Shown here: positions 9,847 through 30,053 of the stretch, piece by piece
Position numbering within the stretch: the first letter of the stretch is position 1
Layout of the letters: each line of letters begins with the position of its first letter
From: Moraxellaceae bacterium
Lineage (GTDB): Bacteria; Pseudomonadota; Gammaproteobacteria; Burkholderiales; Rhodocyclaceae
Assembly: GCA_031119205.1 (NCBI GenBank)
Contig: JAVHYF010000013.1
Span: 1 to 35,609 of the forward strand
Length of the DNA: 35,609 bases
Direction of reading: 5' to 3'
The notes under the pieces: model-generated
Databases searched by the model: none
The model's input: the letters and a program-made list of their open reading frames with translations, nothing else
Told to the model about the DNA's origin: nothing
Program-made: the position numbers and the translations under genes

Positions 9847-11403
9847 TCAGCGCGCGGCCTCGAGGCTCGCGATGTCGCTGGCCTGGGCGAGGTCCTCGAG
9901 CCAGGCGCGCCATGCCTCGTCGCGCTCCGCGGGGTCGCCGCGCAGCAGGGCCGAGGGGTGCAGCGTGATCAGCACGCGCCGGCCCTGCGGCCCTTCGAGC
10001 CACTGGCCGCGTTCGGCCGTCACCGCCACGGGCCGGCCCACCAGCGCACGCGCGGCGGTGGCGCCCAGGGCGATGAAGGCGCGCGGGCGCACCTGTGCAA
10101 TTTCCGATTCGAGCCAGTGCAGGCAGGCCGCGGCCTCGCGCTGGCCGGGCGTCTTGTGGATGCGCCGCTTGCCGCGCAGCTCGAACTTGAAGTGCTTCAC
10201 CGCATTGGTGACGAAGAAATGCTCGCGCGACCAGCCAAGCTCGGCCACGGCGCGGTTGAAGAGCTGGCCCGCAGGCCCCACGAAGGGCCGGCCCACCAGG
10301 TCCTCCTGCTCGCCGGGCTGCTCGCCCACCACCATCAGCGCCGCATGGATCGGCCCCTCGCCCATCACCGACTGGGTGGCGTGCGCGCCGATGGGGCACT
10401 CGCGGCAGCGCTCGGTGGCGCGCTTGAGCGCAGCCAGTGCGGCCTTCGGGTCGTCGGGCAGGGCCGCGCCGGGGTGCGGGTCCAGCGCACGGGCCTGCTG
10501 CACCGGCTGCACGATGCGCCGCGCCGGCGACGTCGGCGCGGCCTCCACCATGCGGCCCGAGCGTTCGGTGGCCTGCGCCGTGAGCGGCGCGATGAGCGCG
10601 GCCTCGGGCAGGTTGTGCCAGTACTTCACGGGCATCTCCTTGCGCATCATGTCGGTCTTCAGCCGTGCGGGGTTGAAGATGTGCGCGTAGTAGGTGAGCC
10701 ACAGCGCCTCGCCCGCATCGGCCGGCGGCGCATCGGCGCGCGAGGCGCCGGGGCCGAAGCGCAATTCGCCGGGTGGCAGCGATGCGTCCGAGGCCTTCTG
10801 GGGGGCTGCGGTCGGATCGGCTTGCGCGGGTGTCCACTGCACCGAGCACTCGGGCGTGAGGATGGCCCAGTGCATCGCCGTGAAGCGGCGCACGAAGAAG
10901 GGCGCCACGGCTTCGACGATGTGGTGGTCGGGCTCGAACCAGGCCACGTGCAGCGGCGGCTCGCCCTCGCGCTCGAGCGGGCGAAAGCGCACGAAGGCCT
11001 TCATCTTGTGCAGGTCGCGGCGCACCGCCTGCATCATGTGGCGTGCGCGGGTGCGGTCGGCATCGAGCGGATCGTGGCGCAGCGCACGTTCGTGCACCAA
11101 GCGCCACAGCAGGCGGTAGAGCAGGGCGAAGCGGGCCGGGTCCTGGTGCAGCACCACCTTCTCGCACAAGGTGAGAAAGGCCGGCGGCACGACGAAATTC
11201 ATCGCGCCTTGCGCAGGCGGGACGGGCGCTGCGGGCCTTTTTTGCTCTGAATCCGCGATCGGCACGAAGAGGTCTTCCGCCGCCCCTGCCGGCGTGTGCC
11301 AGGCCACGTCCTCGGGCGGCACCAGGTGTGCCAGCAGCCGTCTCGCCTCGCTTCGAAAGCCGGGCCAGTCGGTTTCGCTGCTGAGAGTGACGGTATGGCG
11401 CAT
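9847..11403 (-). CDS. DUF4130-UdgX fusion: uracil-DNA crosslinking repair protein
   Basis: A 518-residue fusion. Residues about 1-265 match the DUF4130 family (TIGR03915 as I recall) that accompanies a radical SAM partner; visible blocks are HDPLDADRTRARHMMQAVRR, RFTAMHWAILTPE and DMMRKEMPVKYWHNLPE. Residues about 320-518 are a family-4-like uracil-DNA glycosylase of the UdgX type. This part has CRECP (Cys333, Cys336; Fe-S ligands), GEQPGEQEDLVGRPFVGPAG (360-379) and the UdgX-specific R-loop KRRIHKTP with His416. LGATAARALVG and LHPSALLR follow. In mycobacterial UdgX the equivalent His forms a covalent bond with the abasic sugar after uracil removal, so suicide crosslinking is expected. It lies 101 bp after the radical SAM gene on the same strand. 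Confidence 0.92.
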   Translation of the reverse strand: MRHTVTLSSETDWPGFRSEARRLLAHLVPPEDVAWHTPAGAAEDLFVPIADSEQKRPAAPVPPAQGAMNFVVPPAFLTLCEKVVLHQDPARFALLYRLLWRLVHERALRHDPLDADRTRARHMMQAVRRDLHKMKAFVRFRPLEREGEPPLHVAWFEPDHHIVEAVAPFFVRRFTAMHWAILTPECSVQWTPAQADPTAAPQKASDASLPPGELRFGPGASRADAPPADAGEALWLTYYAHIFNPARLKTDMMRKEMPVKYWHNLPEAALIAPLTAQATERSGRMVEAAPTSPARRIVQPVQQARALDPHPGAALPDDPKAALAALKRATERCRECPIGAHATQSVMGEGPIHAALMVVGEQPGEQEDLVGRPFVGPAGQLFNRAVAELGWSREHFFVTNAVKHFKFELRGKRRIHKTPGQREAAACLHWLESEIAQVRPRAFIALGATAARALVGRPVAVTAERGQWLEGPQGRRVLITLHPSALLRGDPAERDEAWRAWLEDLAQASDIASLEAAR

Positions 11404-11504
11404 GCGTCTCAAGCTAGGGGGGGCGACACGGCCCGTGTGTAGGTGGCCGGCGCGCGGCGCGGGCGGCGCAGTCGTGCACCGCAGCGCGCGCGCATCGAAG
11501 CGCG

Positions 11505-12782
11505 TCAGGCGTCGAAGAGACTGCGCTGCACCGGCGGTGGTGCGAGGCGGGCCTTGAGGTCCTCGGCCTCCAGGACGCGGCCCGGCCGATGGTCGGCCAG
11601 CACCACGAAGGGCATGACCTTGCGCAAGGGCACGCGCAGGCGCTTGAGGTCGTCGCTGCGCAACCGGCGCACGCGGCGCGTGGCCAGCAGCTGCTGCACC
11701 GTGCGCACGCCCAGGCCGGGCACGCGCCACAGCAGCTCGCGCGGCGCGGTGTTGAGGTCGACCGGGAAGCGTTCGCGGTGCGCCAGCGCCCAGGCCAGCT
11801 TGGGATCGACATCGAGCGCGAGCATGCCGCCCTGCGCGGGCGCGACGATCTCGCTCGCCTCGAAGCCGTAGAAGCGCAGCAGCCAATCGGCCTGGTAGAG
11901 CCGGTGCTCGCGCACCAGCGGCGGCGCCACCAGCGGCAGCGACGAGGACGCATCGGGAATGGGGCTGAAGGCCGAGTAGTAGACGCGCCGCAGCCGGTAC
12001 GCGCCGTAGAGCTGGGCGCTGCTGGCCAGGATGGCCGCGTCGTCCGTGGCGTCGGCGCCCACGATCATCTGCGTGCTCTGGCCGGCGGGCGCGAAGCGCG
12101 GCGCCGCGGCACGGGCCGGCCGCGCGCGCGGCAGCGACACGGTGGGTGCCGACTCGGCCTGCGCCTTCTGGGCCTTGGCCTCGTCGATGTGCACCGTCAG
12201 CCGCGCCATCGAGCGGCGGATGGCCGCGCCGTCCTTCTCGGGCGCGAGGCTCTCCAGGCCCTGCACGGTGGGCAGCTCGACGTTGATGCTCAGCCGGTCG
12301 GCGTAGCGGCCGGCCTTGTGCAGCAGCTCGGGCGCCGCATCGGGGATGGTCTTGAGGTGGATGTAGCCGCGGAAGTCGTGCTCCTCGCGCAGCACGCGCG
12401 CGACCTCGACCACCTGCTCCATCGTGTAGTCGGGGCTGCGGATGATGCCGCTGGAGAGGAACAGGCCCTCGATGCAGTTGCGCCGGTAGAAGTCGAGCGT
12501 GAGCTGCACCACCTCGTCGACCGAGAAGCGCGCCCGCGGCACGTTGCTGGTGACGCGGTTGACGCAGTACAGGCAGTCGTACTGGCAGAAGTTGGTCAGC
12601 AGGATCTTGAGCAGCGAGATGCAGCGCCCGTCGGGCGCGTAGCTGTGGCAGATGCCGGAGCCCTCGGTCGAGCCGATGCCGCGGCCGCCGACCGAGTGGC
12701 GCTTCTCGGTGCCGCTGGAGGCACAGGAGGCGTCGTACTTGGCGGCGTCGGCGAGGATGGCGAGCTTGCGCTGAAGAATCAC
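11505..12782 (-). CDS. Radical SAM DNA modification/repair protein (UdgX partner)
   Basis: A 425-residue radical SAM protein of the family named 'putative DNA modification/repair radical SAM protein' (TIGR03916 as I recall). The cluster motif is NFCQYDCLYC, with Cys66, Cys70 and Cys73 (CxxxCxxC). The N-terminal MILQRKLAILADAAKYDASC and GICHSYAPDGRCISLLKILL are family hallmarks. A helix-hairpin-helix DNA-binding region (VDLNTAPRELLWRVPGLGVR) lies in the C-terminal third. The chemistry is unknown; the constant pairing with DUF4130 and UdgX implies action on damaged or modified bases. The start is GTG 12782, with no clear ribosome site, and it overlaps a LexA-like palindrome. Confidence 0.92.
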   Translation of the reverse strand: MILQRKLAILADAAKYDASCASSGTEKRHSVGGRGIGSTEGSGICHSYAPDGRCISLLKILLTNFCQYDCLYCVNRVTSNVPRARFSVDEVVQLTLDFYRRNCIEGLFLSSGIIRSPDYTMEQVVEVARVLREEHDFRGYIHLKTIPDAAPELLHKAGRYADRLSINVELPTVQGLESLAPEKDGAAIRRSMARLTVHIDEAKAQKAQAESAPTVSLPRARPARAAAPRFAPAGQSTQMIVGADATDDAAILASSAQLYGAYRLRRVYYSAFSPIPDASSSLPLVAPPLVREHRLYQADWLLRFYGFEASEIVAPAQGGMLALDVDPKLAWALAHRERFPVDLNTAPRELLWRVPGLGVRTVQQLLATRRVRRLRSDDLKRLRVPLRKVMPFVVLADHRPGRVLEAEDLKARLAPPPVQRSLFDA

Positions 12783-19517: not shown

Positions 19518-20249
19518 TCAGTGCAGCGCCTCGAGTTCCCAGGACACGTTCTGCCAGGCCACGCCGAAGCCCGCGCCGCCCGCGGTGGCGTGGGGTCCGG
19601 CGAGGGCTTGCCGCGCCCAGTCGGCACCCGCGCGGACGCTGTCGATCACCGGCACGGGCACGGCCGGCGCGATGGCCGCCGCCATGCCGGCCAGCCCGGC
19701 GCCGCCCAAGACCACCGCGTCAGCGCCGAAGCGCGCGATGGCGTCCTGGCACGCCTGAACCAGTAGCGCGTGCGCGGCGACGGGATCGGCCGCCAGTTGC
19801 GCGCCGGTCGGCGCGATGGTGTGAATGCCGGCCAGCGACGCACCGGGTTCCAGCGCGAGCGCCAGCCGCTCGAGCATCGGCTTCCATCGCTCGCCGCCGG
19901 TGACGACGGCGTAGCGCCCGTGCCGCGCCGCGGCCAGGAAGGAGGCTTCGGCCAGCCCGCCGACGGGCACGCCGGCGCCTTCGCGCAGCGCGAACAGCCC
20001 CGGGTCGCCGAAGCAGCCGATGAGCACTGCGTCGGCCGCGAGTCCCTGCGCCTTCGCCACCGCCCACGCGTCGAGCACCGTGTGCTGCGCCACCGCGTAG
20101 CTCGCCTCGGAGGCGATATAGGGTGCACCGAAGCGCGCGGTCAGCGTGTGCACGTCGATGCCCGCGCCGACCGCGGCCTTCACATGCTGCTGCAGCAGCG
20201 CGCTGACGCTCGTCGAGGTGTTGGGGTTGATGACCAGCAGCGAGGGCAT
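19518..20249 (-). CDS. Asp/Glu/hydantoin racemase family protein lacking the second Cys
   Basis: A 243-residue member of the family that includes hydantoin racemase (HyuE) and allantoin racemase (HpxA). The opening LLVINPNTSTSVSALL and the block GAPYIASEASYAVAQ are hallmarks. The first catalytic Cys is present in IGCFGDPGL (Cys79). The usual LGCAGM is LGGAGL here, so Gly183 replaces the second Cys. A two-Cys racemase mechanism therefore looks impaired; a one-Cys isomerase or decarboxylase is possible, as in arylmalonate decarboxylase. It is last in the ABC operon, 14 bp after the permease, so it probably acts on the imported compound. Confidence 0.88.
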   Translation of the reverse strand: MPSLLVINPNTSTSVSALLQQHVKAAVGAGIDVHTLTARFGAPYIASEASYAVAQHTVLDAWAVAKAQGLAADAVLIGCFGDPGLFALREGAGVPVGGLAEASFLAAARHGRYAVVTGGERWKPMLERLALALEPGASLAGIHTIAPTGAQLAADPVAAHALLVQACQDAIARFGADAVVLGGAGLAGMAAAIAPAVPVPVIDSVRAGADWARQALAGPHATAGGAGFGVAWQNVSWELEALH

Positions 20250-20263
20250 GTCAGCTCGTCATC

Positions 20264-21160
20264 TCAGCCGCCGCGCCTCTTCGACGCCCGGCGCCCCAGC
20301 AGCGCCGCGCTGCCCAGGGCCACGCCCATCACCGCGAAGGAGACGATGGTCGTGACCGTGCCCAGCGCGTAGATCGAGGGCGTGGTCACGGTCGAGGTGA
20401 GGCCCTGCAGCTCGAGCGGCAGGGTGTTGACGTCGCCGATGGCCTGCGAGGTGCGCGCGATCTCGTCCCAGCTGAGGGTGAAGCCGAACATGCCGATGCC
20501 GATCACCGAGGGGCCGATGAGCGGCAGCACCACGTGGCGAAAGCTCTGCCAGGGCGTGGCGCCGAGGTCGCGCGCGGCTTCCTCGTAGGCCGGGTTGAAG
20601 CGGTTGAACACCGCGAACATGATCAGCAGCCCGAAGGGCAGCGTCCAGGTGAGGTGTGCGCCCAGCGCCGAGGTGAGCAGGCCCAGCGCGGTGCCGTAGT
20701 TCTCCAGCGTGCCTTCGGCGCCCATCGCCGTGAGGGCCGACTTGATGCCGGTGTCCAGCAGGCGAAACTGCAGCCCGATGCCCAGCGACACGATGATGGA
20801 CGGCATGATGAGGCTGGCCACGGCGATGTAGAAGAGCGCATCGCCGCCCTTGAGCCGCTTGCGGAAGGCCAGCCCCGCGAGCACCGAGAGCACGACGGTG
20901 AAGGCCATCACCACCGCCCCCAGCATCAGCGAGCGCCGGAAGGCCGCCCCGATGTCCACCGTGCCCAGCCCCTCGGCCAGCTTGTGGAACCAGTGCAGCG
21001 ACACGCCCCGCATCGGGAACGTGAGGCCGCCCTCCGGCCCCTGGAAGCTCAGCACGAAGATCGTGAACATCGGCCCGTACATGAACACCACGAACAGCGC
21101 GAACACGATCGCCAGCGGCCAGAAACCGGGGGCGCGGCGGTCAGACATTCCGGCTTGCAT
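20264..21160 (-). CDS. ABC transporter permease, PotC-like
   Basis: A 298-residue inner-membrane permease with six predicted membrane segments. The cytoplasmic EAA loop EEAARDLGATPWQSFRHVVLPL contacts the ATPase. It is closest in style to PotC/YdcV permeases of the polyamine/opine/iron class. I chose ATG 21160 (MQAGMSDRRAPG), with AAAGAG six bases upstream; ATG 21148 is an alternative and a GTG/ATG further upstream is unlikely. It is the second permease of the operon, separated from the first by 185 bp of structured DNA. Confidence 0.92.
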   Translation of the reverse strand: MQAGMSDRRAPGFWPLAIVFALFVVFMYGPMFTIFVLSFQGPEGGLTFPMRGVSLHWFHKLAEGLGTVDIGAAFRRSLMLGAVVMAFTVVLSVLAGLAFRKRLKGGDALFYIAVASLIMPSIIVSLGIGLQFRLLDTGIKSALTAMGAEGTLENYGTALGLLTSALGAHLTWTLPFGLLIMFAVFNRFNPAYEEAARDLGATPWQSFRHVVLPLIGPSVIGIGMFGFTLSWDEIARTSQAIGDVNTLPLELQGLTSTVTTPSIYALGTVTTIVSFAVMGVALGSAALLGRRASKRRGG

Positions 21161-21345
21161 GTCAACTCTTTGTGGTCCGGCGCGCCACCCGCAGCAGAAC
21201 ACGGGCTTTGCTCCGGCCGACGAGCGCAGCGAAGTCTCCAGAGCACCCGAGGAACTGGCTTTGCCAGGCCTCTGGGTGCGCCCCCCTCCAAGCCGAAGGC
21301 GCCAGAGAGGGGGGAGCCGCGAAGCGGCTTGGGGGGTGCTTCACT
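21161..21345 (-). repeat. Structured spacer between the two permease genes
   Basis: GCACCC (21244-21249) and GGGTGC (21275-21280) close a long hairpin with inner GAGG/CCTC and CTGGC-TTT-GCCAG (21256-21268). A second set pairs CCCCCCTC with GAGGGGGG, and AGCCGC-GAA-GCGGCT follows. There is no coding potential. Such stems inside an operon often stop 3' exonucleases or lower downstream expression. Confidence 0.55.
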
Positions 21346-22263
21346 TCACAGCTCCTTGCGGATGTCGACGAGCCGCGTGAGCCCGTAGATGATCATGAGC
21401 ACGACCGCCAGCAGGATGACGGCGTTGGCGGCGGCGAGAGGAAACTGCAGGTAGCTGGTCTGCACCTGGATGATCTTGCCGACCGAGGCGATCTGCTGGC
21501 CGCCCATGACGCCGATGGTGACGAAGTCGCCCATGACGATGGTGATGACGAAGATCGAGCCGATGATGATGCCGGTCTTGGACAGCGGCACGATCACGTT
21601 CCACAGCGTCTGCCAGCCGCTGGCGCCGGCATCGGTGGCGGCTTCGAGCAGGCTGCGGTCGATGCGCATCATCGAGTTGAAGATCGGCACGATCATGAAC
21701 ATCGTGTACAGGTGCACGAAGGCCAGCACCACCGAGAAGTCGGAGAACAGCAGCCACTCGACCGGCTCGTTCACCAGGCCGATGCCCATGAGCGTCTGGT
21801 TCACCAGGCCGTTGCGCCCCAGCAGCGGCACCCACGAGATCATGCGGATCACGTTCGAGGTCCAGAAGGGCACGGTGCACAGCACGAAGAGCGCGGTCTG
21901 CATGCCCGAGGAGCGCACGTGGAAGGCCAGGAAGTAGGCCACCGCGAAGCCCAGCACCAGCGTGATGGCCCAGACCAGGAAGCAGAACTTGAGCGTGGAC
22001 AGGTACGTCGACAGCGTGACGCAGAAGTCGCCGTTGTCGGTGAGGTGCGAGCAGCCCTCGAAGATGCTGAGGTAGTTGCGCAGCGAGACGGCCGGGATCA
22101 GCTCGTACTCGTTGAAGTCCCACAGGCTCACCATGCCGATGAGCACCAAAGGGACGATGAAGAACAGCAGGAACACCAGCGCGAACGGCGCCGCCTGCCA
22201 CCACGCGGCGATGGTGTGCAGCGGCCGGGTGGCGGCGTGGGTGGCGGTGGCAGGGGCGCTCAT
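21346..22263 (-). CDS. ABC transporter permease, PotB-like
   Basis: A 305-residue inner-membrane permease with six predicted membrane segments (first LVFLLFFIVPLVLIGMV). The EAA loop is EAATDAGASGWQTLWNVIVPLSKTGI, here written in two parts: EAATDAGASGW then QTLWNVIVPLSKTGI. The periplasmic loop after segment 1 is long and contains two Cys (EGCSHLTDNGDFCVTL), possibly a disulfide. It pairs with the PotC-like permease. It is preceded by a repeat-rich spacer of 155 bp after the binding-protein gene. Confidence 0.93.
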   Translation of the reverse strand: MSAPATATHAATRPLHTIAAWWQAAPFALVFLLFFIVPLVLIGMVSLWDFNEYELIPAVSLRNYLSIFEGCSHLTDNGDFCVTLSTYLSTLKFCFLVWAITLVLGFAVAYFLAFHVRSSGMQTALFVLCTVPFWTSNVIRMISWVPLLGRNGLVNQTLMGIGLVNEPVEWLLFSDFSVVLAFVHLYTMFMIVPIFNSMMRIDRSLLEAATDAGASGWQTLWNVIVPLSKTGIIIGSIFVITIVMGDFVTIGVMGGQQIASVGKIIQVQTSYLQFPLAAANAVILLAVVLMIIYGLTRLVDIRKEL

Positions 22264-22418
22264 GAGAGTTCGGGATCGGGATCGGGATCGGGCAGCCGTA
22301 CGCGAAGGACGCGAAGATCACGCGAAGGGCGCAAAGAAGACATCAAAAGACATGGATGTTCTTTCGCGTTCTTCGCGAAACCTTCGCGCTCTTCGCGCAT
22401 GGATGTCCGTGCCCGTAC
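22264..22418. repeat. Repeat-rich intergenic element (GGGATC tandem plus CGCGAAG inverted repeats)
   Basis: 22272-22292 is three and a half copies of GGGATC. Then CGCGAAG-type units (22301-22338) are mirrored by CTTCGCG-type units (22359-22398), and CATGGATGT occurs twice. Together they can fold into a long imperfect stem. It sits between the binding-protein gene and the permease genes, where mRNA processing commonly sets more binding protein than permease. Confidence 0.7.
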
Positions 22419-23714
22419 TCAGGCCGCCACGAACTCGTTCCACTTGCGAACCATGTACTCGTTCTCGTCCATGACCGCGTTCCAGCAGGCGATGCCGCCC
22501 ATGCGCTGCTCGTAGCTGCCGCCGTCGCGCACCGCGCCGGCCTTGGCGATCACGTCGCCCTGCGGGCTCTTGATGTCCTGCGCGGCGGGCTTGCCTTCCA
22601 TCCAGTAGGCCCACTCGTAGGCCTCCATCTTGGCCTTGGCCGTCTCCAGCACGGCGCTGTAGTAGCCCTGGCGGTTGAGGTAGGCGCCGGCCCAGCCGTC
22701 GAGGAACCAGTTGATGAACTCGTAGGCGCCGTCGAGCTTCTTGCCCGACAGCGTGGCCGGCAGGCCGAAGCCCGAGGCCCAGGCGCGATAGCCTTCCTTG
22801 AGCGGCTGGAACACGCAGTCGATGCCCTTGCTGCGCACGGCCGTCACGGCCGGGCTCCACATCGACTGGATCACGACCTCGCCCGAGGCCATGAGGTTGA
22901 CCGACTCGTTGAAGTCCTTCCACAGCGCGCGGAACTGGCCGGCCTTCTTGGCTTCGATCAGGGTCTTGATCGTCAGGTCGATCTCGGCCTTGGTCATGTT
23001 GCCCTTGTCCTTGTACTTGTGGATGCCCATGGACTCCACGACCATCGCCGCATCCATGATGCCGATCGACGGAATGTTCAGGATCGCGGCCTTGCCCTTG
23101 AACTCGGGGTTCAGCAGCTCCTTCCAGGAATCGATCGGGCGCTTGATCAGGTCGGGGCGGATGCCCAGCGTGTCGGCGTTGTAGACCGTCGGGATCAGCG
23201 TCATGAACTGCGTCGGCGTGGCCGAGAACTTCTTGGAGCCGGCGCCTTCCAGGAACATCACCTTCTTGGGCGCGGTGCCCTGGTCGCCCACGGCCTTGCC
23301 GGCCACTTCACCCTTGGTGAACAGCGTGGTGATCTTGTCGGCGTTCTTGATGCGCTTGGAATCGATGGCCAGCAGGTTGCCGGTCGGGATGATCTTCTTC
23401 AGCGAGAAGTACTCGGTGTCGATCAGGTCGAAGCTGTTGGGCGCGGTGACGGCGCGCTTGGTCACTTCGTCGGTGGTGACGGGGATGTACTGGATCTCGA
23501 TCCCGGTATCGGCCTTGAATTTCTCCGCAATGGCTTTGTCCTGGTTCACCGCGGTGCCCAGGTAGCGCAGCACGATCTTCTCCTGCGCGTGGACGGCCGG
23601 AAACACACCTGCGGCCAGGATGCCCGCGGTGCCCTTCAGCACCGTGCGGCGGTTCTGGTTCGCGCTGGTGTCGACGCTGTCCTGCTTAGCCTTGTCGGAA
23701 TCGAATTCAGCCAT
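22419..23714 (-). CDS. ABC transporter substrate-binding protein, Tat-exported, PotD-like
   Basis: A 431-residue periplasmic binding protein (extracellular family 1/PotD group). The signal has a twin-arginine motif, NRRTVLKGTAGILAAGVFPA (Arg22-Arg23), cleaved near VHA-QEK, which suggests folded export through Tat. The mature start is IVLRYLGTAVNQDKAIAEKF. Later blocks such as FDLIDTEYFSLKKI and EFINWFLDGWAGAYLNRQGYY are typical of polyamine/opine-type binders. I chose ATG 23714 because GGAG lies six bases upstream; ATGs at 23720 and 23726 are badly placed. The ligand is not predictable from sequence alone; nitrogen-linked control suggests an organic nitrogen source. Confidence 0.92.
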   Translation of the reverse strand: MAEFDSDKAKQDSVDTSANQNRRTVLKGTAGILAAGVFPAVHAQEKIVLRYLGTAVNQDKAIAEKFKADTGIEIQYIPVTTDEVTKRAVTAPNSFDLIDTEYFSLKKIIPTGNLLAIDSKRIKNADKITTLFTKGEVAGKAVGDQGTAPKKVMFLEGAGSKKFSATPTQFMTLIPTVYNADTLGIRPDLIKRPIDSWKELLNPEFKGKAAILNIPSIGIMDAAMVVESMGIHKYKDKGNMTKAEIDLTIKTLIEAKKAGQFRALWKDFNESVNLMASGEVVIQSMWSPAVTAVRSKGIDCVFQPLKEGYRAWASGFGLPATLSGKKLDGAYEFINWFLDGWAGAYLNRQGYYSAVLETAKAKMEAYEWAYWMEGKPAAQDIKSPQGDVIAKAGAVRDGGSYEQRMGGIACWNAVMDENEYMVRKWNEFVAA

Positions 23715-23826
23715 TTTCATCTCCATGCCTGGTGGTCAGTGAAAGTGGTGCAACGGGTGTTGCAGCCTGTTGTTACTGGGGTGCCGGCCCCGTCGCCCCG
23801 GCTTGACGGGAAAACTATCGGTGGCT

Positions 23827-24819
23827 TCAGCTCGCGAGGCGATGCACGTCGCTGCTGTTCCACTGCGCAAACATCCGCTCGCCCGGCGAACACGGTGCGC
23901 GGAAGAAATCGGCCTCGGGCAACATCACCGAGAAATCGTCCTGCTGCGGCAGGTTCATGGTCACCAGCACGTAGGTGCCCTGGTACTCCACGCCCAACAC
24001 GTCGCCGGCCATGGTGTTGTCACCCGAGGCATCGCGCGACAGGCGCACCTTGTCGGCACGCAGCGCGATCTTTGCGTCGCCCAGGCGGATCACGTTGTGC
24101 CCGCCGAGGAACTTCGCGACGAACTCGGAGGCCGGCGCGTTGAACAGATCGTGCGGCGAGGCCACCTGCTCGATCAGGCCCTGGTTCATCACCACCACCT
24201 GGTCGGACAAGGCCATCGCTTCTTCCTGCGAGTGGGTGACGTGGATGAAGGTGAAGCCGAGGTCGTGCTGCCAGCGCTTCAGCTCGGCACGCATGCGGAT
24301 ACGCAGGAAGGGGTCCAGCGCGGACAGTGGCTCGTCCAGCAGCAGCACGCTGGGCTCGGTAATCAGCGCACGCGCCAGCGCGACGCGCTGCTGCTGACCG
24401 CCGGAGAGTTCGGAGGGCTTGCGCTGGGCGTAGGGCGTCATCGCCACGCGCTCCAGCAGGTCGTGCGCGCGCTTGTGACGCTCGGCCTTGCCGATGCCCC
24501 GCATCTTCAGGCTGAAGGCGACGTTGTCCAGCACCGACAGGTGCGGAAACAACGCGTAGCTCTGGAACATCATCGCGGTGCCGCGCTCGGCAGCGGGCAG
24601 CAGCGTGATGTTGCGGCCGCCCAGCAACACATCGCCGTCGCTGGCCAGCTCATGGCCGGCAATCATGCGCAAGGTGGAAGTCTTGCCGCAGCCAGACGGG
24701 CCGAGCAGGCAGCAATAGCTACCCGCGGCGACACGCAGGTCGATGGCATGCACGGCGGTGACGTCGCCGTAGCGCTTGGTCAGCTTGACGAGTTCCAGAT
24801 CCGCAGATTTCTGCTGCAT
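23827..24819 (-). CDS. ABC transporter ATP-binding protein, PotA-like
   Basis: A 330-residue ATPase. Walker A is GPSGCGKT (40-47), the Q-loop MFQSYALFPHL, the signature LSGGQQQR (138-145), Walker B LLLDEPLSALD (159-169) and the switch His is in VTHSQEEA. A C-terminal TOBE-like domain (about 240-325) fits the PotA/FbpC class. The start has an excellent site, GGAGG, six bases before ATG 24819. It is first in the five-gene operon. A sigma-54 promoter and an NtrC-like site lie upstream. The next gene starts 112 bp downstream. Confidence 0.95.
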   Translation of the reverse strand: MQQKSADLELVKLTKRYGDVTAVHAIDLRVAAGSYCCLLGPSGCGKTSTLRMIAGHELASDGDVLLGGRNITLLPAAERGTAMMFQSYALFPHLSVLDNVAFSLKMRGIGKAERHKRAHDLLERVAMTPYAQRKPSELSGGQQQRVALARALITEPSVLLLDEPLSALDPFLRIRMRAELKRWQHDLGFTFIHVTHSQEEAMALSDQVVVMNQGLIEQVASPHDLFNAPASEFVAKFLGGHNVIRLGDAKIALRADKVRLSRDASGDNTMAGDVLGVEYQGTYVLVTMNLPQQDDFSVMLPEADFFRAPCSPGERMFAQWNSSDVHRLAS

Positions 24820-24851
24820 GTGAGGCCTCCTCGACGGGTTCGAGGCCTTAA

Positions 24852-24867
24852 AGCATTGCGCATGCCA
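24852..24867 (-). promoter_or_regulatory. Sigma-54 (-24/-12) promoter of the ABC operon
   Basis: On the minus strand the sequence TGGCATG-N4-ATGCT matches the RpoN consensus TGGCACG-N4-TTGCW with two mismatches. The essential GG and GC are present at the exact spacing. Transcription would start near 24841, leaving a leader of about 22 bases that carries the GGAGG site (24826-24830). Confidence 0.68.
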
Positions 24868-24954
24868 GCAAACACACATCCGTTCAACACATTGATTCCA
24901 ATGAAAACAGCGACTGGACCAAGCCAGATTTTGTATGCAATCCAGCGACGTCTT

Positions 24955-24971
24955 TGCACGCAGTTGGCGCA
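24955..24971 (-). promoter_or_regulatory. NtrC-like enhancer dyad
   Basis: TGCACG-CAGTT-GGCGCA is 17 bases long, the length of the NtrC site TGCACC-N5-GGTGCA, with one mismatch in each half. It lies about 115-130 bases upstream of the predicted sigma-54 start, the normal distance for an NtrC enhancer. Confidence 0.5.
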
Positions 24972-25051
24972 CGAACGGAGTGCCTGCCTCAATGCAGGGC
25001 GCTGGCACTCAGCGGGTGAATGACTGGCTGCTCAGGGAGCCGTTAGTTCGC

Positions 25052-25080
25052 TTGGTCGCCGGACAGCGTGCGCATATAGA
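25052..25080 (+). promoter_or_regulatory. Possible sigma-70 promoter of the PEP-CTERM-like cluster
   Basis: TTGGTC (25052-25057) and TATAGA (25075-25080) are 17 bases apart, about 90 bases before the first gene. Each hexamer is only a partial match, so this is a weak call. Confidence 0.3.
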
Positions 25081-25170
25081 CTTCACGACAGTTCGCACGC
25101 CAGCACCGGGCGCGAACCTGCTTGTAAAGCCGTACATCCACATCTACCCCCGAGAAAAAGTGGAGGCGTC

Positions 25171-25853
25171 ATGCAACAGGTCCGGTTATGGGCAGGCCAT
25201 CTCCTGGCCTGCCTGGTGTTACTCCTGCCCGTCGCACCTGCAGCGCATGCCGCTGCGGTCTACCAATACACGTTCACCAGCGGAGCCCTGACCGATCCGG
25301 AGTGGACCTGGGAGTTCCTGGGCGAGCGCTTCAGCATCGGCTTTTCTCTGCCCACCCCATTGCGTACCGGCGATCTGGACGTCACAGGCGTGCAGGCCTG
25401 GGGACAGATCGGTGCCAACCGCCTGAGTTTTCCGCACCCGCCGCCCGCAACGGAATGGGTGCCCAACCCCTATGAACCCGGTGGCGAATGGGAGCAGCCG
25501 GTCTACCCCTATCTCACCTCCGGCTTCTCCCTGTTTGTGGGCACCTGGGGCCGGACGGCCTGCCCACCACCTGGACGATCAGCATCGGCCAGATCGAGCA
25601 CGTAGACCTCTACAGCTCGTCCCTCCTCGGCCTGTACAGCCGCTACGAAGGGCCGGACATCTGGTTCAACGAAGACGTCTATGCCGGCCCCTCCCGCTCC
25701 GTCAACACGGTTGCACGCAACACGGTGGTGCCGGGCACCTGGTCGCTCGCAGTCAGCGAAGTGCCGGAGCCTTCCACGCTCCTTCTGCTCGGTTGCGCTG
25801 CGCTGACGCTCCCACTCACGCGCCGCCGCACTACCCCGCTGCGCAACCCCTGA
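25171..25853 (+). pseudogene. PEP-CTERM-like secreted protein, copy 1 (frameshifted)
   Basis: First of four tandem paralogs. Frame 1 gives the signal peptide (ending PAAHA), then VYQYTFTSG, GERFSIGFSLPTPLRTGDLD and PPPATEWVPNPYEPGGEW, as in the other copies, but runs off at ACPPPGRSA and stops at 25605. The missing part continues in another frame from about 25545 (LGPDGLPTTWTISIG) to SEVPEPSTLLLLGCAAL plus PLTRRR, ending at 25853. One base lost near 25544-25546 (ACCCTGGGG to ACCTGGGG) explains it. This copy alone has canonical VPEP; the Cys pair of the other copies is absent. GGAGG lies four bases before the ATG. It may be a real pseudogene or a sequencing error. Confidence 0.8.
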
Positions 25854-25902
25854 CTACCCATCACCACCCATAACAACAACCACCCACCCCAAGGATAGAA
25901 CC

Positions 25903-26592
25903 GTGAGAACCCTGAAGATCAGCGCCCTGACACTCGTTGCCAGCATGCTGTTACCCATGGCGGTGCAGGCCGCCCCGCTGTACCAGTACACCTACACCAG
26001 CGGCATTTTCGGTGACCCCGCCACGACGGGGCCTGACTTCCTCGGCCAGCGCTTCACCATCGACATCTGGTCACCCGTCGCCTTCGGCCTGGGCAGCGTA
26101 GACACGGAGGGCATGCGCGCAAGGGGAACGGCGCCGGGTATCCAGATCGACTTCCCGCAACCACCGCCGACCACCTCGTGCCAGCCGGACCCCTGGTTTC
26201 CGGAAGGTGGCTGCACGCAACAACCCGACTATCCCTACGCCACCGCCAGCCAGCACCTGCAGGTGCTGGAACTCGACGGAAACGGCTTGCCCCTGGCCTG
26301 GGACCTGGCGCTTTACGGATCGTGGATCGAGGGATGGCGCTGGAACGAGAGCAGCTTCCTGTCGCTGATTTCAAGCTACTACAGCGACAGCTTCTTCGTG
26401 GAAGACATCTATGGCGGTACGCCGGTCAGTTCCGGCCTGATCGCGCGCAACCTCGAGGACACCGGCGGAAGCTGGCGCCTCACGGTTAGCGAAGTCCCGG
26501 CACCGTCCACCGCCCTGCTGGCTGTCGGCGCCCTGCTCGCCCTGCGGCTGGTGCGCCGTCCAGCTGCCACACAAACCAAGGAGTCAGCATGA
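25903..26592 (+). CDS. PEP-CTERM-like secreted protein, copy 2
   Basis: A 229-residue protein with a signal peptide ending AVQA, then APLYQYTYTSG and GQRFTIDIWSPVAFGLGSVD. The block PPPTTSCQPDPWFPEGGC (a likely disulfide) and PDYPYATASQHLQVLELDG follow. The C-terminus is VPAPSTALLAVGALLALRLV then RR (about 198-221). That tail has the three-part form of PEP-CTERM sorting signals (Pro-rich motif, hydrophobic helix, Arg cluster), with VPAP instead of VPEP. The start is GTG 25903 with AAGGAT upstream; its stop overlaps the next start as ATGA, so translation is coupled. Domain function is unknown; it is presumably anchored or released at the surface by an exosortase. Confidence 0.82.
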   Translation: MRTLKISALTLVASMLLPMAVQAAPLYQYTYTSGIFGDPATTGPDFLGQRFTIDIWSPVAFGLGSVDTEGMRARGTAPGIQIDFPQPPPTTSCQPDPWFPEGGCTQQPDYPYATASQHLQVLELDGNGLPLAWDLALYGSWIEGWRWNESSFLSLISSYYSDSFFVEDIYGGTPVSSGLIARNLEDTGGSWRLTVSEVPAPSTALLAVGALLALRLVRRPAATQTKESA

Positions 26593-27233
26593 GAATGCGT
26601 CCGCACTTCCTGTTCGCACTGGCATTGCTGCCGGGCCTTCCCGCGGCGGCCGCCGCGGCGCCGATCTATCACTACACCTACGAAAGTGGTCTATCGACAT
26701 CGGGCCTGATCGGTGAGCGCTTCACGATCGACATCTGGTCGCCCACGCAACTCGGTATCGGCAGCCTGTCTACGGCGGGCGTCACGGCCCGCGGCACGGC
26801 CCTGGGTACGCAGATTGATTTTCCGCTTCCGCCGCCGACCATCTCCTGCCAGCCGAACCCATGGGAGCCGGAAGGTGGCTGCGTGGACATGCCCGACTAC
26901 CCGTACGCCACATCCAGCCTGAGCCTGGCAGTGTCCAGTCTGGATGCCAGCGGCCTGCCGTCGGGCTGGGAGCTCTCGCTGCATGGCTCCTGGGTCAGCA
27001 GCTGGCGGTTCAACGACACCGCCATCCTCCTGCTCGACTCCTTCTATTCCAATGAAGGCTCCTATGTGGACTACATGCTGGACAGGGGCGGCCTCATCGC
27101 CGGTAACGACGGCGGCAACCGTGGCAGCTGGAGCCTTGCGATAACGGAAGTACCTGCGCCCCCCACTTTGCTGCTAGCCGGCTGCGCCCTTGCGGTGCTC
27201 GGGCTGACGCGCCGACGCACCCACACAACCTGA
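26589..27233 (+). CDS. PEP-CTERM-like secreted protein, copy 3
   Basis: A 214-residue paralog of copy 2. The signal peptide ends AAAAA; then come APIYHYTYESG, GERFTIDIWSPTQLGIGSL, PPPTISCQPNPWEPEGGC and MPDYPYATSSLSLAVSSLD. The tail is VPAPPTLLLAGCALAVLGLT then RRR (about 188-210). AAGGAG lies just before the ATG, inside the end of copy 2. Copies 2 and 3 are the closest pair by eye. The Asp/Ser/Gly-rich mature part with regular hydrophobic alternation suggests an all-beta fold. Confidence 0.82.
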   Translation: MRMRPHFLFALALLPGLPAAAAAAPIYHYTYESGLSTSGLIGERFTIDIWSPTQLGIGSLSTAGVTARGTALGTQIDFPLPPPTISCQPNPWEPEGGCVDMPDYPYATSSLSLAVSSLDASGLPSGWELSLHGSWVSSWRFNDTAILLLDSFYSNEGSYVDYMLDRGGLIAGNDGGNRGSWSLAITEVPAPPTLLLAGCALAVLGLTRRRTHTT

Positions 27234-27245
27234 GGATCATCCAGC

Positions 27246-27941
27246 ATGAAAAAGCTCTCCTTCCACCTGCTCCCGACCCTCGTAGTCGTAGCGCTGGGGC
27301 TTCCTGCCACCGCGATCGCCGTACCCCTCTACCAGTACACCTACACCAGCGGGGCACTCGACGAGCCGGTCGGCCCGGACGCCCCCATTTCGGAGTACTC
27401 CGGGCAGCGCTTCACCATCAGCTTCTCGACCTGGTCACCATTGGGCGTCGGCGGGCTGGATGTCACCGACGTGCGCGCCAACGCGAGCATCGGGGACCTG
27501 AGCTTCGGCTTCCCCATGCCGCCGCCCGCCATGACCTGCGTGCCGGATCCCTGGGGTCCGCCGGAAGCGCCCTGCATCGACATGCCGGCCCTTCCCTACC
27601 ACTCGACCAGCTTCAGTCTCACTGTCGAAGCGCTGGACGCCGGAGGCCTGCCGTCGGCATGGTTGATGAGCTTCAATCACATCTACCGCTACGATCCCCG
27701 CTCGTTCGACTATACCTATGACAATTTCATGTCGAACAACGTGGACTATCTGCACGAACATTTCGTATACGGCCACCCGCTCAGCGCAGGTCCGCTGGCC
27801 TGGAACATCAGCGAGCCCGGGGCCTGGAGCCTGGCGATAAGCGAGGTGCCGGCGCCGCCCACGCTGTTGCTGGCAACCGGTGCCTTGCTTGGCCTCGGCT
27901 ACGCGGCGCGGCGCCGGCCCCACGCTCGCCGGCCCGCATAG
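27246..27941 (+). CDS. PEP-CTERM-like secreted protein, copy 4
   Basis: A 231-residue paralog, 12 bases after copy 3. The signal peptide ends TAIAV; then VPLYQYTYTSGALDEPVGPD, GQRFTISFSTWSPLGVGGLD, PPPAMTCVPDPWGPPEAPC (Cys pair kept) and MPALPYHSTSFSLTVEALD. The tail is VPAPPTLLLATGALLGLGYA then ARRR (about 201-225). GAGGAT precedes the start. Its middle is richer in Tyr, Asn and Phe than the other copies. It is probably the last gene of the four-gene transcript; no clear terminator was seen after it. Confidence 0.82.
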   Translation: MKKLSFHLLPTLVVVALGLPATAIAVPLYQYTYTSGALDEPVGPDAPISEYSGQRFTISFSTWSPLGVGGLDVTDVRANASIGDLSFGFPMPPPAMTCVPDPWGPPEAPCIDMPALPYHSTSFSLTVEALDAGGLPSAWLMSFNHIYRYDPRSFDYTYDNFMSNNVDYLHEHFVYGHPLSAGPLAWNISEPGAWSLAISEVPAPPTLLLATGALLGLGYAARRRPHARRPA

Positions 27942-28104
27942 TCTGTATGTCGCCCGGCAATGCCCTCGCACCCCGTGCATTTCGCGCAGATGTCACGGGT
28001 TTGCGGGTCATCTCTGTCCCGGCAAGGAAACTATAAGGTCGCGCGCAGGTGAGCTCCCGGGGCTGCTGGTACCCTGCGCGCATCGATCACCACCAAGGAC
28101 GGGC

Positions 28105-28641
28105 ATGTCCCAGCCAGGCCCCACCCCGCTTACCGCCGTCGCCCTGTCCGCCATGGATCGCGACGCCTTCGTCGCGGCACTGGACGGCATCGTCGAGCAC
28201 ACGTCCTGGGCGACGGAACGCGCGTGGGCGGCGCGGCCTTTCGCCGACCGTGCGGCGCTGCATGCGGCCATCTTCGCAGCCATCGTGCAGGCCTCCGCCG
28301 AAGAACAGCTGGAGCTGCTGCGGCAGCACCCCGAGCTGGCGGGCCGGGCAGCGATCGCCAATACGCTGACGGCCGAATCCACCCAGGAACAGGACCGTGC
28401 GGGCCTGCGCAACTGCAGTCCGGAGGAGTATGCGCAGCTCACCGCACTGAACGATGCTTACGGCAAGCGCTTCGGCCACCCCTTCATCGTCGCGGTGACG
28501 GGCATGAATCGCCAGCAGGTCATGGCGCTGTTCGCGCAACGCCTGCAGAACGATCCTGACACCGAACGGATGGAAGCGCTGAAGCAGGTCGGGCGGATCA
28601 TCGGCATCCGCCTCGACGAGCGCGTGGCCGGGAACGCTTGA
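28105..28641 (+). CDS. uraD: OHCU decarboxylase (ureide pathway)
   Basis: A 178-residue enzyme that decarboxylates 2-oxo-4-hydroxy-4-carboxy-5-ureidoimidazoline to S-allantoin, the last step of urate breakdown. Family features are the catalytic His75 in RQHPELAG, the STQEQDRAGL segment (92-101) and FGHPFIVAVTGMNR (123-136). The conserved end IIGIRLDERV follows. The length is normal. AAGGAC lies just before ATG 28105. It stands without hiuH, puuE or allantoinase neighbours here. The nearest thematic link is the racemase-family ABC operon 3 kb to the left, separated by the PEP-CTERM-like genes. Confidence 0.93.
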   Translation: MSQPGPTPLTAVALSAMDRDAFVAALDGIVEHTSWATERAWAARPFADRAALHAAIFAAIVQASAEEQLELLRQHPELAGRAAIANTLTAESTQEQDRAGLRNCSPEEYAQLTALNDAYGKRFGHPFIVAVTGMNRQQVMALFAQRLQNDPDTERMEALKQVGRIIGIRLDERVAGNA

Positions 28642-28712
28642 GGAGCAGGCGCCCGCAGACCGCAGGCCCGCGGCACGGCACGCAGTGGGCCGCACCGGGA
28701 CCTGCCGGGCGG

Positions 28713-29942
28713 TTAATACACCTGCCAGTTCAGCAGCGCATTGACGAAGGTTGCGCTGTAGGCGCTGCGGGACTGGTCAGCACGGCGGGACTCGTTGCCG
28801 ACGCCACCGGTCAGGCGCAGGGAAGGACTGATCTGGTAGTTGGCGGACAGACGCGCAGTCAGCGTGTCTTCGTTGCCACGCGACAAGGTGCCGACGCCCA
28901 GGTAGTCACGCCAGCGCCAGTCGATCGACGGTGACAGGGTCAGCTTCGGGCCCGGCGACCAGTCGTAGATGGCACGGATGCCGGTGGTCTTGGCATAGCT
29001 GGCGCTCGCGTCGCTCACTTCACCGATCTGGCGATAGATATCCAGGCGCACCGCACTGGGGCCGCCCGAGCGCCACAGGTAGCTGGCGTTGCCGTACCAG
29101 CCCTTGAAGTCGCGGATGTCATAAGTGTCGTGCTCGCGCCACTGGTAACCGAACTTGCCGCTCAGGCGGGAGTGTCCGGCGAAGGCCCAGTTCCAGCCCA
29201 GCTCGACGGCATCCTGCTCGTAGCCGCTGTCGGACAGGATGCTGGCGGCCCGGTTCGGGAAGCGGTAGTCGGCATGGCGGCCGCGCAGGTCCACCCAGTT
29301 GCCGGCGCGCGATTGCTGGCGGACGCCGAGGTTGGCTTCCCAGCCATCGCGATCGCCCGACTTCTGCAGGTCGCTCTCGTTGCGGTAGCGGGCAGCATTG
29401 GCGCCGCCCACGATCTGCCAGCGCGCATTCGTGCCGAACACGGTGTCCAGACCCAGCGTGTCCGAGGTCACCATGTTCTTTTCCTGCGTGCGCTGGTCCG
29501 CCAGGTCCGCCAGGTAGTTCAGGTGCTGGTAACGCAAGCCGACCTCCGCGCGCTGCAGCGGCCGCACGCTCCAGCTCAGGTCGTAGCGCTGGCGCGTGTG
29601 GTCGAGCTGGTCGAAGCGTGCATAGCGAACCAGCGACGGTGCCGCCACGAAGCCCAGACGATGGCCATCGAAGTCGCGGTCGTAGTCGACACGCAAACCG
29701 GTCACCGAGATCCAGTCGCTGCGCTCACCGGTGTCCGTCCGGCCCGGAGGCGCAACGCCATCACCCAGGCGATAGGGGTTGGTGTCGTAGGTGATGTCCT
29801 GGCTGAGCGAGACATCCAGCGGCCCGTCGTCTTCCTTGCGCGTCTGCGGCACCGCCATCTGGGCGGATGCGATGCCGGCCGCCGTACAACCGATGACCGC
29901 CACGCAGACGGCAGACCTTGCTCTCCTCTTTGCTCTTTTCAT
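28713..29942 (-). CDS. epsL: EpsL-like outer-membrane beta-barrel of exopolysaccharide export
   Basis: A 409-residue exported protein with a signal peptide ending GIASAQ. Many amphipathic beta strands with periplasmic turns follow, ending LLNWQVY, a terminal aromatic motif of outer-membrane barrels. Blocks such as SLSQDITYDTNPYRLGDG and the overall layout fit the exosortase/PEP-CTERM-associated EpsL family, thought to help export polysaccharide. The start is ATG 29942; an in-frame GTG lies at 29954. It is last of the polysaccharide genes, 111 bp after the transferase, and converges with uraD. The family assignment is from memory of pattern, not alignment. Confidence 0.78.
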   Translation of the reverse strand: MKRAKRRARSAVCVAVIGCTAAGIASAQMAVPQTRKEDDGPLDVSLSQDITYDTNPYRLGDGVAPPGRTDTGERSDWISVTGLRVDYDRDFDGHRLGFVAAPSLVRYARFDQLDHTRQRYDLSWSVRPLQRAEVGLRYQHLNYLADLADQRTQEKNMVTSDTLGLDTVFGTNARWQIVGGANAARYRNESDLQKSGDRDGWEANLGVRQQSRAGNWVDLRGRHADYRFPNRAASILSDSGYEQDAVELGWNWAFAGHSRLSGKFGYQWREHDTYDIRDFKGWYGNASYLWRSGGPSAVRLDIYRQIGEVSDASASYAKTTGIRAIYDWSPGPKLTLSPSIDWRWRDYLGVGTLSRGNEDTLTARLSANYQISPSLRLTGGVGNESRRADQSRSAYSATFVNALLNWQVY

Positions 29943-30053
29943 TGTTGTTCTCACTTTGTTCTGGGTTGCTCTGAGTTCTCACGGGTTGATTCTTGATCGG
30001 GCATCCCCACCAGCACACACCCATGCATGCGGCGTCCAGACGCCGCCAGTGGT

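Follow-up and report, generated by a model that had tools for sequence, protein, structure and literature searches.

A tandem array of paralogs with PEP-CTERM-like tails adjoining an XrtB-type eps locus

The window, that is, the whole stretch of 35,609 nucleotides that was analysed (positions 1-35609 of contig C42 of genome G000, an assembly of 4.63 Mb in 90 contigs), carries four related genes in a row on the plus strand (25171-27941), one of which is broken. Their products combine a signal peptide, a mature domain and a C-terminal tail resembling that of PEP-CTERM proteins. These genes, hereafter the array, are the following.

25171-25853, plus strand: copy 1, a PEP-CTERM paralog with a frame break; it opens in the frame 25171-25605 and continues, with its second half and the VPEP tail, in a different frame as far as 25853
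25903-26592, plus strand: copy 2, signal peptide, mature domain (26484 its last position, 25972 its first) and VPAP tail; GTG start
26589-27233, plus strand: copy 3, signal peptide, mature domain (26658-27140) and VPAP tail
27246-27941, plus strand: copy 4, signal peptide, mature domain (27321-27836) and VPAP tail

Order, strand and coordinates agreed with the initial annotation of this DNA, as did the ATGA overlap at the junction of copies 2 and 3 and the gap of 12 bases between copies 3 and 4. Paralogy was assessed by BLASTP and by shuffling. Single comparisons gave E values of 3e-32 for copies 2 and 4, and of 1e-20 for copy 2 and the first part of copy 1, and in each of the six copy pairs the paralogy score was reached by none of 500 shuffles. 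By these measures the likeness is real and beyond chance, and the four copies are paralogs. They had been described as four consecutive genes, but copy 1 is not one open gene: a frame break, overlooked in that description, lies near 25545 (within 25540-25555), and the first frame stops at 25605. To judge from the reading frames, the break could reflect either decay or an assembly error. Motifs YxYT(Y/F)xSG and GxRF(T/S)I and a YPY or LPY block are found in all four copies, as had been noted, whereas the block PPPxxCxPxPW...C is found in three only, copy 1 having no Cys there and Tyr in place of Trp. Inspection of the translations showed in every copy a signal peptide, recognisable by a hydrophobic stretch and by A-x-A-like sites ahead of the mature part, and, at the extreme C-terminus, a transmembrane helix followed by a basic (Arg) cluster. 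A purine-rich stretch resembling a ribosome-binding site lies 5' of the start of each copy.

The mature domain had not been recognised initially, and no curated family searched describes it. Comparison with Pfam, NCBIfam and the sequences of the PDB matched no described family (best E value in the PDB, 1.1), and PHROGs returned nothing for copies 2-4. The Pfam scan yielded the tail motifs and one weak match (Pax2_C, E 0.1), and matches to NCBIfam PEP-CTERM models were confined to the C-terminal part (the tail plus no more than about 30 residues at the end of the mature part), with scores far below the cut-offs. A 12-bit NCBIfam match to the first part of copy 1 was taken as chance. The structure predicted for copy 4 is, at fair confidence, all beta (mean predicted local distance difference test score, pLDDT, 80.9; predicted template modelling score, 0.72), and a Foldseek search with this model gave no match at an E value of 0.001 or below, the best being 0.21 in the PDB and 0.089 in BFVD. 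The model of an Azoarcus member of the family was poor (pLDDT 60.3), its first strands following an order similar to that of the copy 4 model. Lys plus Arg make up 2-4% of the mature parts, in keeping with the scarcity of basic residues that Haft 2006 (PMC1569441) reports for PEP-CTERM proteins, and a pair of Cys residues is present in three copies. A literature search over titles and the beginnings of abstracts found no account of this family, and no paper in the library searched combines exosortase with PEP-CTERM and XrtB, or FxDxF with PEP-CTERM. From these comparisons, the mature domain looks like a small, lineage-restricted protein family without described relatives. The array thus looks like a novel family within a known kind of protein, not like a novel system.

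The tail motif is VPEP in copy 1 and VPAP in copies 2-4. Copy 1 scored 18.1 bits with TIGR02595 (cut-off 16), for which copies 2-4 were not listed. In the whole genome, model PF07589 gave 20 matches at E values up to 10, 15 of them above the cut-off; one of the 20 (L039) was judged on inspection to be no tail, and the genome total is about 20 PEP-CTERM tails. The same search gives sub-cut-off matches in 13 of 14 control genomes, so that weak matches alone mean little. A search for VPAP tails in the rest of the genome, as the initial annotation had advised, found them on four proteins outside the array family, all above the PF07589 cut-off (L031-L033, 24.4-25.5 bits; L026, 29.0 bits). Because these four proteins end in VPAP, this motif marks no separate system. 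One of them, L026, is similar to GDSL lipases.

The genome encodes two exosortases, XrtA (339.6 bits, cut-off 208) and XrtB (370.6 bits, cut-off 275). XrtA lies on contig C41 together with an XrtA-associated tyrosine autokinase (L018), and XrtB in the eps cluster next to the array. A dedicated family of surface or matrix proteins delivered by a variant exosortase had been proposed; the exosortase-type tails and the family without a described domain stood, but the variant exosortase did not, as both enzymes exceed their curated cut-offs. A private system of VPAP tails and a variant exosortase was consequently ruled out, given the VPAP tails on outside proteins and two standard exosortases. Exosortases were found in 7 of the 12 genomes tested: the own genome, four of the genus Azoarcus, and G001 and G003 of the window's genus. 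All four Azoarcus genomes have XrtA, and G001 has XrtB. The only match of G003 in the exosortase search was exosortase Q (NF012182, 318.7 bits; L070, G003:C53:18533-19258). PEP-CTERM tails and exosortases co-occur across genomes, according to Haft 2006 (PMC1569441). As this rule predicts, a tail test of G001, G002, G004 and G007 of the window's genus gave scores above the cut-off for 3 of 6 matches in G001 and for none in the other three, which are exosortase-free.

Two divergent tandem paralogs of the array genes, both with VPEP tails, are present on contig C6 of the same genome (84699-86235; E 1.6e-15 and 2.3e-12). Just upstream of this pair, a Cthe_2159 carbohydrate-binding protein is encoded (L016:4752-6377). 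Other genomes were searched in sets of the same family, order and phylum, which may overlap. A profile of the mature part only (A3) matched in 3 of 395 genomes of the same taxonomic family, namely the own genome, Azoarcus indigens DSM 12121 (G174) and Azoarcus sp. TTM-91 (G204). Of the 4 genomes of the genus Azoarcus, 2 bear the array family. With profile A4 there was no credible match in 398 of 399 genomes of the order, the own genome being the remaining one, and among 398 genomes of the phylum the own genome alone matched, with none in the other 397. Both the A3 and A4 searches scored at most 8-9 candidates per genome and may miss weak members, such as the second gene of TTM-91, which escaped the A3 search and was found in a later search of the genus Azoarcus. 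A 17.4-bit fragment in G066, from the A4 search of the order, was dismissed, having a stop inside. Alignment A2, which includes the tail, retrieved in 101 genomes only the own one and a match in G024 that was the tail end of a different protein; a first scan of named genomes with A2 gave 89 pattern matches and no relative, and plasmid searches gave no match for P0007 and P0001.

Azoarcus sp. TTM-91 has two neighbouring family genes. A. indigens carries one intact counterpart with a second copy that has decayed, and a further gene is found on another of its contigs. The second tandem copy of A. indigens (L058, about 11300-12300) is broken over several frames, and its counterpart in TTM-91 is open (L057:6419-7333). 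All 10 readable members of the family end in the tail: four in the window (copy 1 through its shifted frame), two on C6, two in A. indigens and two in TTM-91, the Azoarcus members having been found by profiles or motifs of the mature part. No tail-less homolog was seen, and all three bearer genomes encode an exosortase, so that neither of the observations initially named as refuting the proposal was made. In Azoarcus, family genes and XrtA are on different contigs; among five neighbouring open reading frames tested in one Azoarcus bearer, none was an eps gene.

The broken copies raise the possibility that the array genes are decaying duplicates without present function, with which the frameshift of copy 1, the broken copy of A. 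indigens and the failure to find the family in nearly all relatives searched would agree. Against this, copies 2-4 are open and preceded by stretches resembling ribosome-binding sites, and nonsynonymous divergence (dN) was below synonymous divergence (dS) in 9 of 9 comparisons. In the one Azoarcus ortholog pair measured, dN was 0.04 and dS 0.33, values that indicate purifying selection in that pair; among window copies 2-4, dN was 0.35-0.61 and dS, near saturation, 0.97-1.15. Loss of function throughout the array is thus judged very unlikely.

To the left of the array, on the minus strand, lie genes for an ABC transporter ATPase, a solute-binding protein and an Asp/Glu/hydantoin racemase. To its right are the following.

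28105-28641, plus strand: uraD (OHCU decarboxylase; PF09349, 172.9 bits), not of the array family, between the array and epsL
28713-29954, minus strand: EpsL (TIGR03014, 213.9 bits, below the curated 275), the end of an XrtB-type eps cluster extending beyond the window on the right

The array sits between the transporter and hydantoin-type racemase set and uraD (window 19518-28641); near uraD of five relatives from the same genus (L085-L089), a tail pattern detected no PEP-CTERM tail. Beyond the window (L017), the cluster encodes an exosortase B fused to an EpsI domain, EpsF, EpsE, EpsD and an undecaprenyl-phosphate glucose phosphotransferase. The array had been placed beside EpsL, which is right as to distance, copy 4 ending 0.77 kb from the epsL gene, but passes over the intervening uraD; the array adjoins the XrtB-type eps locus and is not inside it. 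Directly beside epsD, the XrtB locus has a PEP-CTERM gene of its own, a member of the FxDxF family (L017:14561-15082, minus strand, about C42:49560-50081; 51.0 bits, cut-off 50), whose product has the tail VPEAETYLMFLAGLGM.

This arrangement suggests that the array could be dedicated cargo of the neighbouring locus, XrtB sorting the four proteins onto or with its polysaccharide. The short distance to epsL and the XrtB-EpsI, EpsD, EpsE and EpsF locus that follows speak for it, and position is the only link observed. On the other side, uraD lies between, the array has the opposite orientation, no family member was found in G001, which has XrtB and belongs to the window's genus, and XrtA is present and XrtB absent in both Azoarcus bearers. 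The tails were also compared. A helix motif M.LAGL is present in the FxDxF tail of the XrtB locus and in all three above-cut-off tails of G001, where XrtB is the sole exosortase, and it is absent from all 19 tails of the XrtA-only Azoarcus genomes, from the 13 other own tails scored and from every array tail. A small comparison of ungapped scores was made with leave-one-out; its XrtB set consisted of four tails, one of which had been selected for its position in the locus. It placed 17 of 19 XrtA-only tails and 4 of 4 XrtB-type tails on the right side, one of the latter narrowly (-2.5). Copies 1-4 scored 12.5, 1.3, 10.0 and 3.8 towards XrtA, so the tails of copies 2 and 4 are poorly separated between the two classes, which leaves some room for XrtB. 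Taken together, the evidence makes dedicated XrtB cargo rather unlikely. Nor was the initial view of an undescribed system supported, as VPAP tails occur outside the family, the other bearers have XrtA only and the XrtB locus has its own cargo candidate in the FxDxF protein.

M.LAGL is a possible tail code for XrtB cargo; drawn from four tails, it is a lead and not proof. A wider scheme, tentative at best, is that cargo in cells that have two exosortases is sorted by the tail helix rather than by the PxP motif, XrtB taking tails with M-x-L-A-G-L and XrtA the rest, including those with VPAP, so that the array would be an XrtA-carried, lineage-restricted family of beta-domain surface proteins that happens to lie beside an XrtB locus. 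It offers, as a by-product, a testable suggestion for the division of cargo between XrtA and XrtB within one cell.

The reading we favour, with a probability of roughly 70%, is that the array proteins are ordinary PEP-CTERM/exosortase cargo, namely lineage-specific, tandemly expanding surface or matrix proteins that are probably sorted by XrtA. A number of results weigh against it. With PF07589 (cut-off 20.7), the tail of copy 1 reached 22.0 bits when the genome was searched and 19.4 when the proteins were scanned, copies 2-4 at most 14.7, and copy 3 had no match. The tail comparison misjudged 2 of 19 XrtA-only tails, and its scores point clearly to XrtA in copies 1 and 3 alone, and weakly in 4 and 2. 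No polysaccharide-binding fold was recognised in the searches of PDB and BFVD with the copy 4 model. Finally, Haft 2006 (PMC1569441) reports a sigma-54-like site before 99 of 167 proteobacterial PEP-CTERM genes, and no such pattern was found on the plus strand at 24900-25170, just 5' of copy 1; across the window the pattern occurs at chance level (22 matches against 20.9 expected), and a sigma-70 scan of 24900-28800 found no site. The low tail scores, and the Ala that copies 2-4 have for a near-invariant Glu, would also suit a tail acting as a mere membrane anchor, in which case the proteins would remain in the inner membrane on its periplasmic side and would not be exosortase substrates. This is highly improbable, as other VPAP tails of the same genome (L031-L033 and L026) pass the Pfam cut-off and paralogs with VPEP exist (copy 1 and the C6 pair). 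The initial designation of the array tails as PEP-CTERM-like is supported, their match to the PEP-CTERM models being partial.

If the array proteins are indeed ordinary exosortase cargo, they would be exported by Sec and lose the signal peptide by cleavage behind an A-x-A-like site. Their C-terminal helix would anchor them in the inner membrane, the Arg cluster lying on the inner side. The exosortase that would then cut near VP(E/A)P and pass the protein on is more likely XrtA (C41) than XrtB of the neighbouring locus; in this way a domain of roughly 155-190 residues, probably all beta, would end at the surface or in the exopolysaccharide (EPS) matrix. There it may bind polysaccharide or hold the matrix to the cell. 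Such a role may be drawn by analogy with two cases: PepA, whose overexpression in Aquincola moves EPS from soluble to bound (PMC9850573), and the CrtB cargo of Nostoc, for which a role in keeping polysaccharide attached to the cell has been proposed (PMC12188702). The family would spread by tandem duplication and would also be subject to decay, as copy 1 and the second copy of A. indigens suggest. The array is also an example of genes whose position next to an eps/exosortase locus is not enough to indicate a dedicated system.

Among known systems, three invite comparison. PepA (NF033554) resembles the array proteins in its tail and in its proposed role of binding matrix to cells, and differs from them in that copies 1, 3 and 4 and the C6 pair match its C-terminal part only (17.1-28.7 bits against 80), copy 2 not being listed. 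The FxDxF family (NF038126) provides a PEP-CTERM protein in the same eps region, but its mature domain and tail are different. Against the cut-off of 50 for this family, 11.8 bits were scored by the second part of copy 1, and copies 2-4 were not listed. PEP-CTERM proteins in general (TIGR02595, PF07589) share with the array the signal peptide, P-x-P, hydrophobic helix and C-terminal Arg cluster, the presence of exosortase and EPS genes in the genome, a mature domain without known relatives and lineage-specific paralogs. Unlike the norm of this class, three of the four array tails are VPAP and below the cut-offs, the four genes are in tandem, whereas a share of over 65% single-gene operons has been reported, three copies have a Cys pair, whereas Cys has been reported to be very low, and no sigma-54-like site was found upstream; the figures for the class are those of PMC1569441. 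The last three of these departures are minor. The same source describes the class as one of lineage-specific expansion, fast turnover and missing homology, and the array would add one more family without a described domain to its many lineage-specific proteins.

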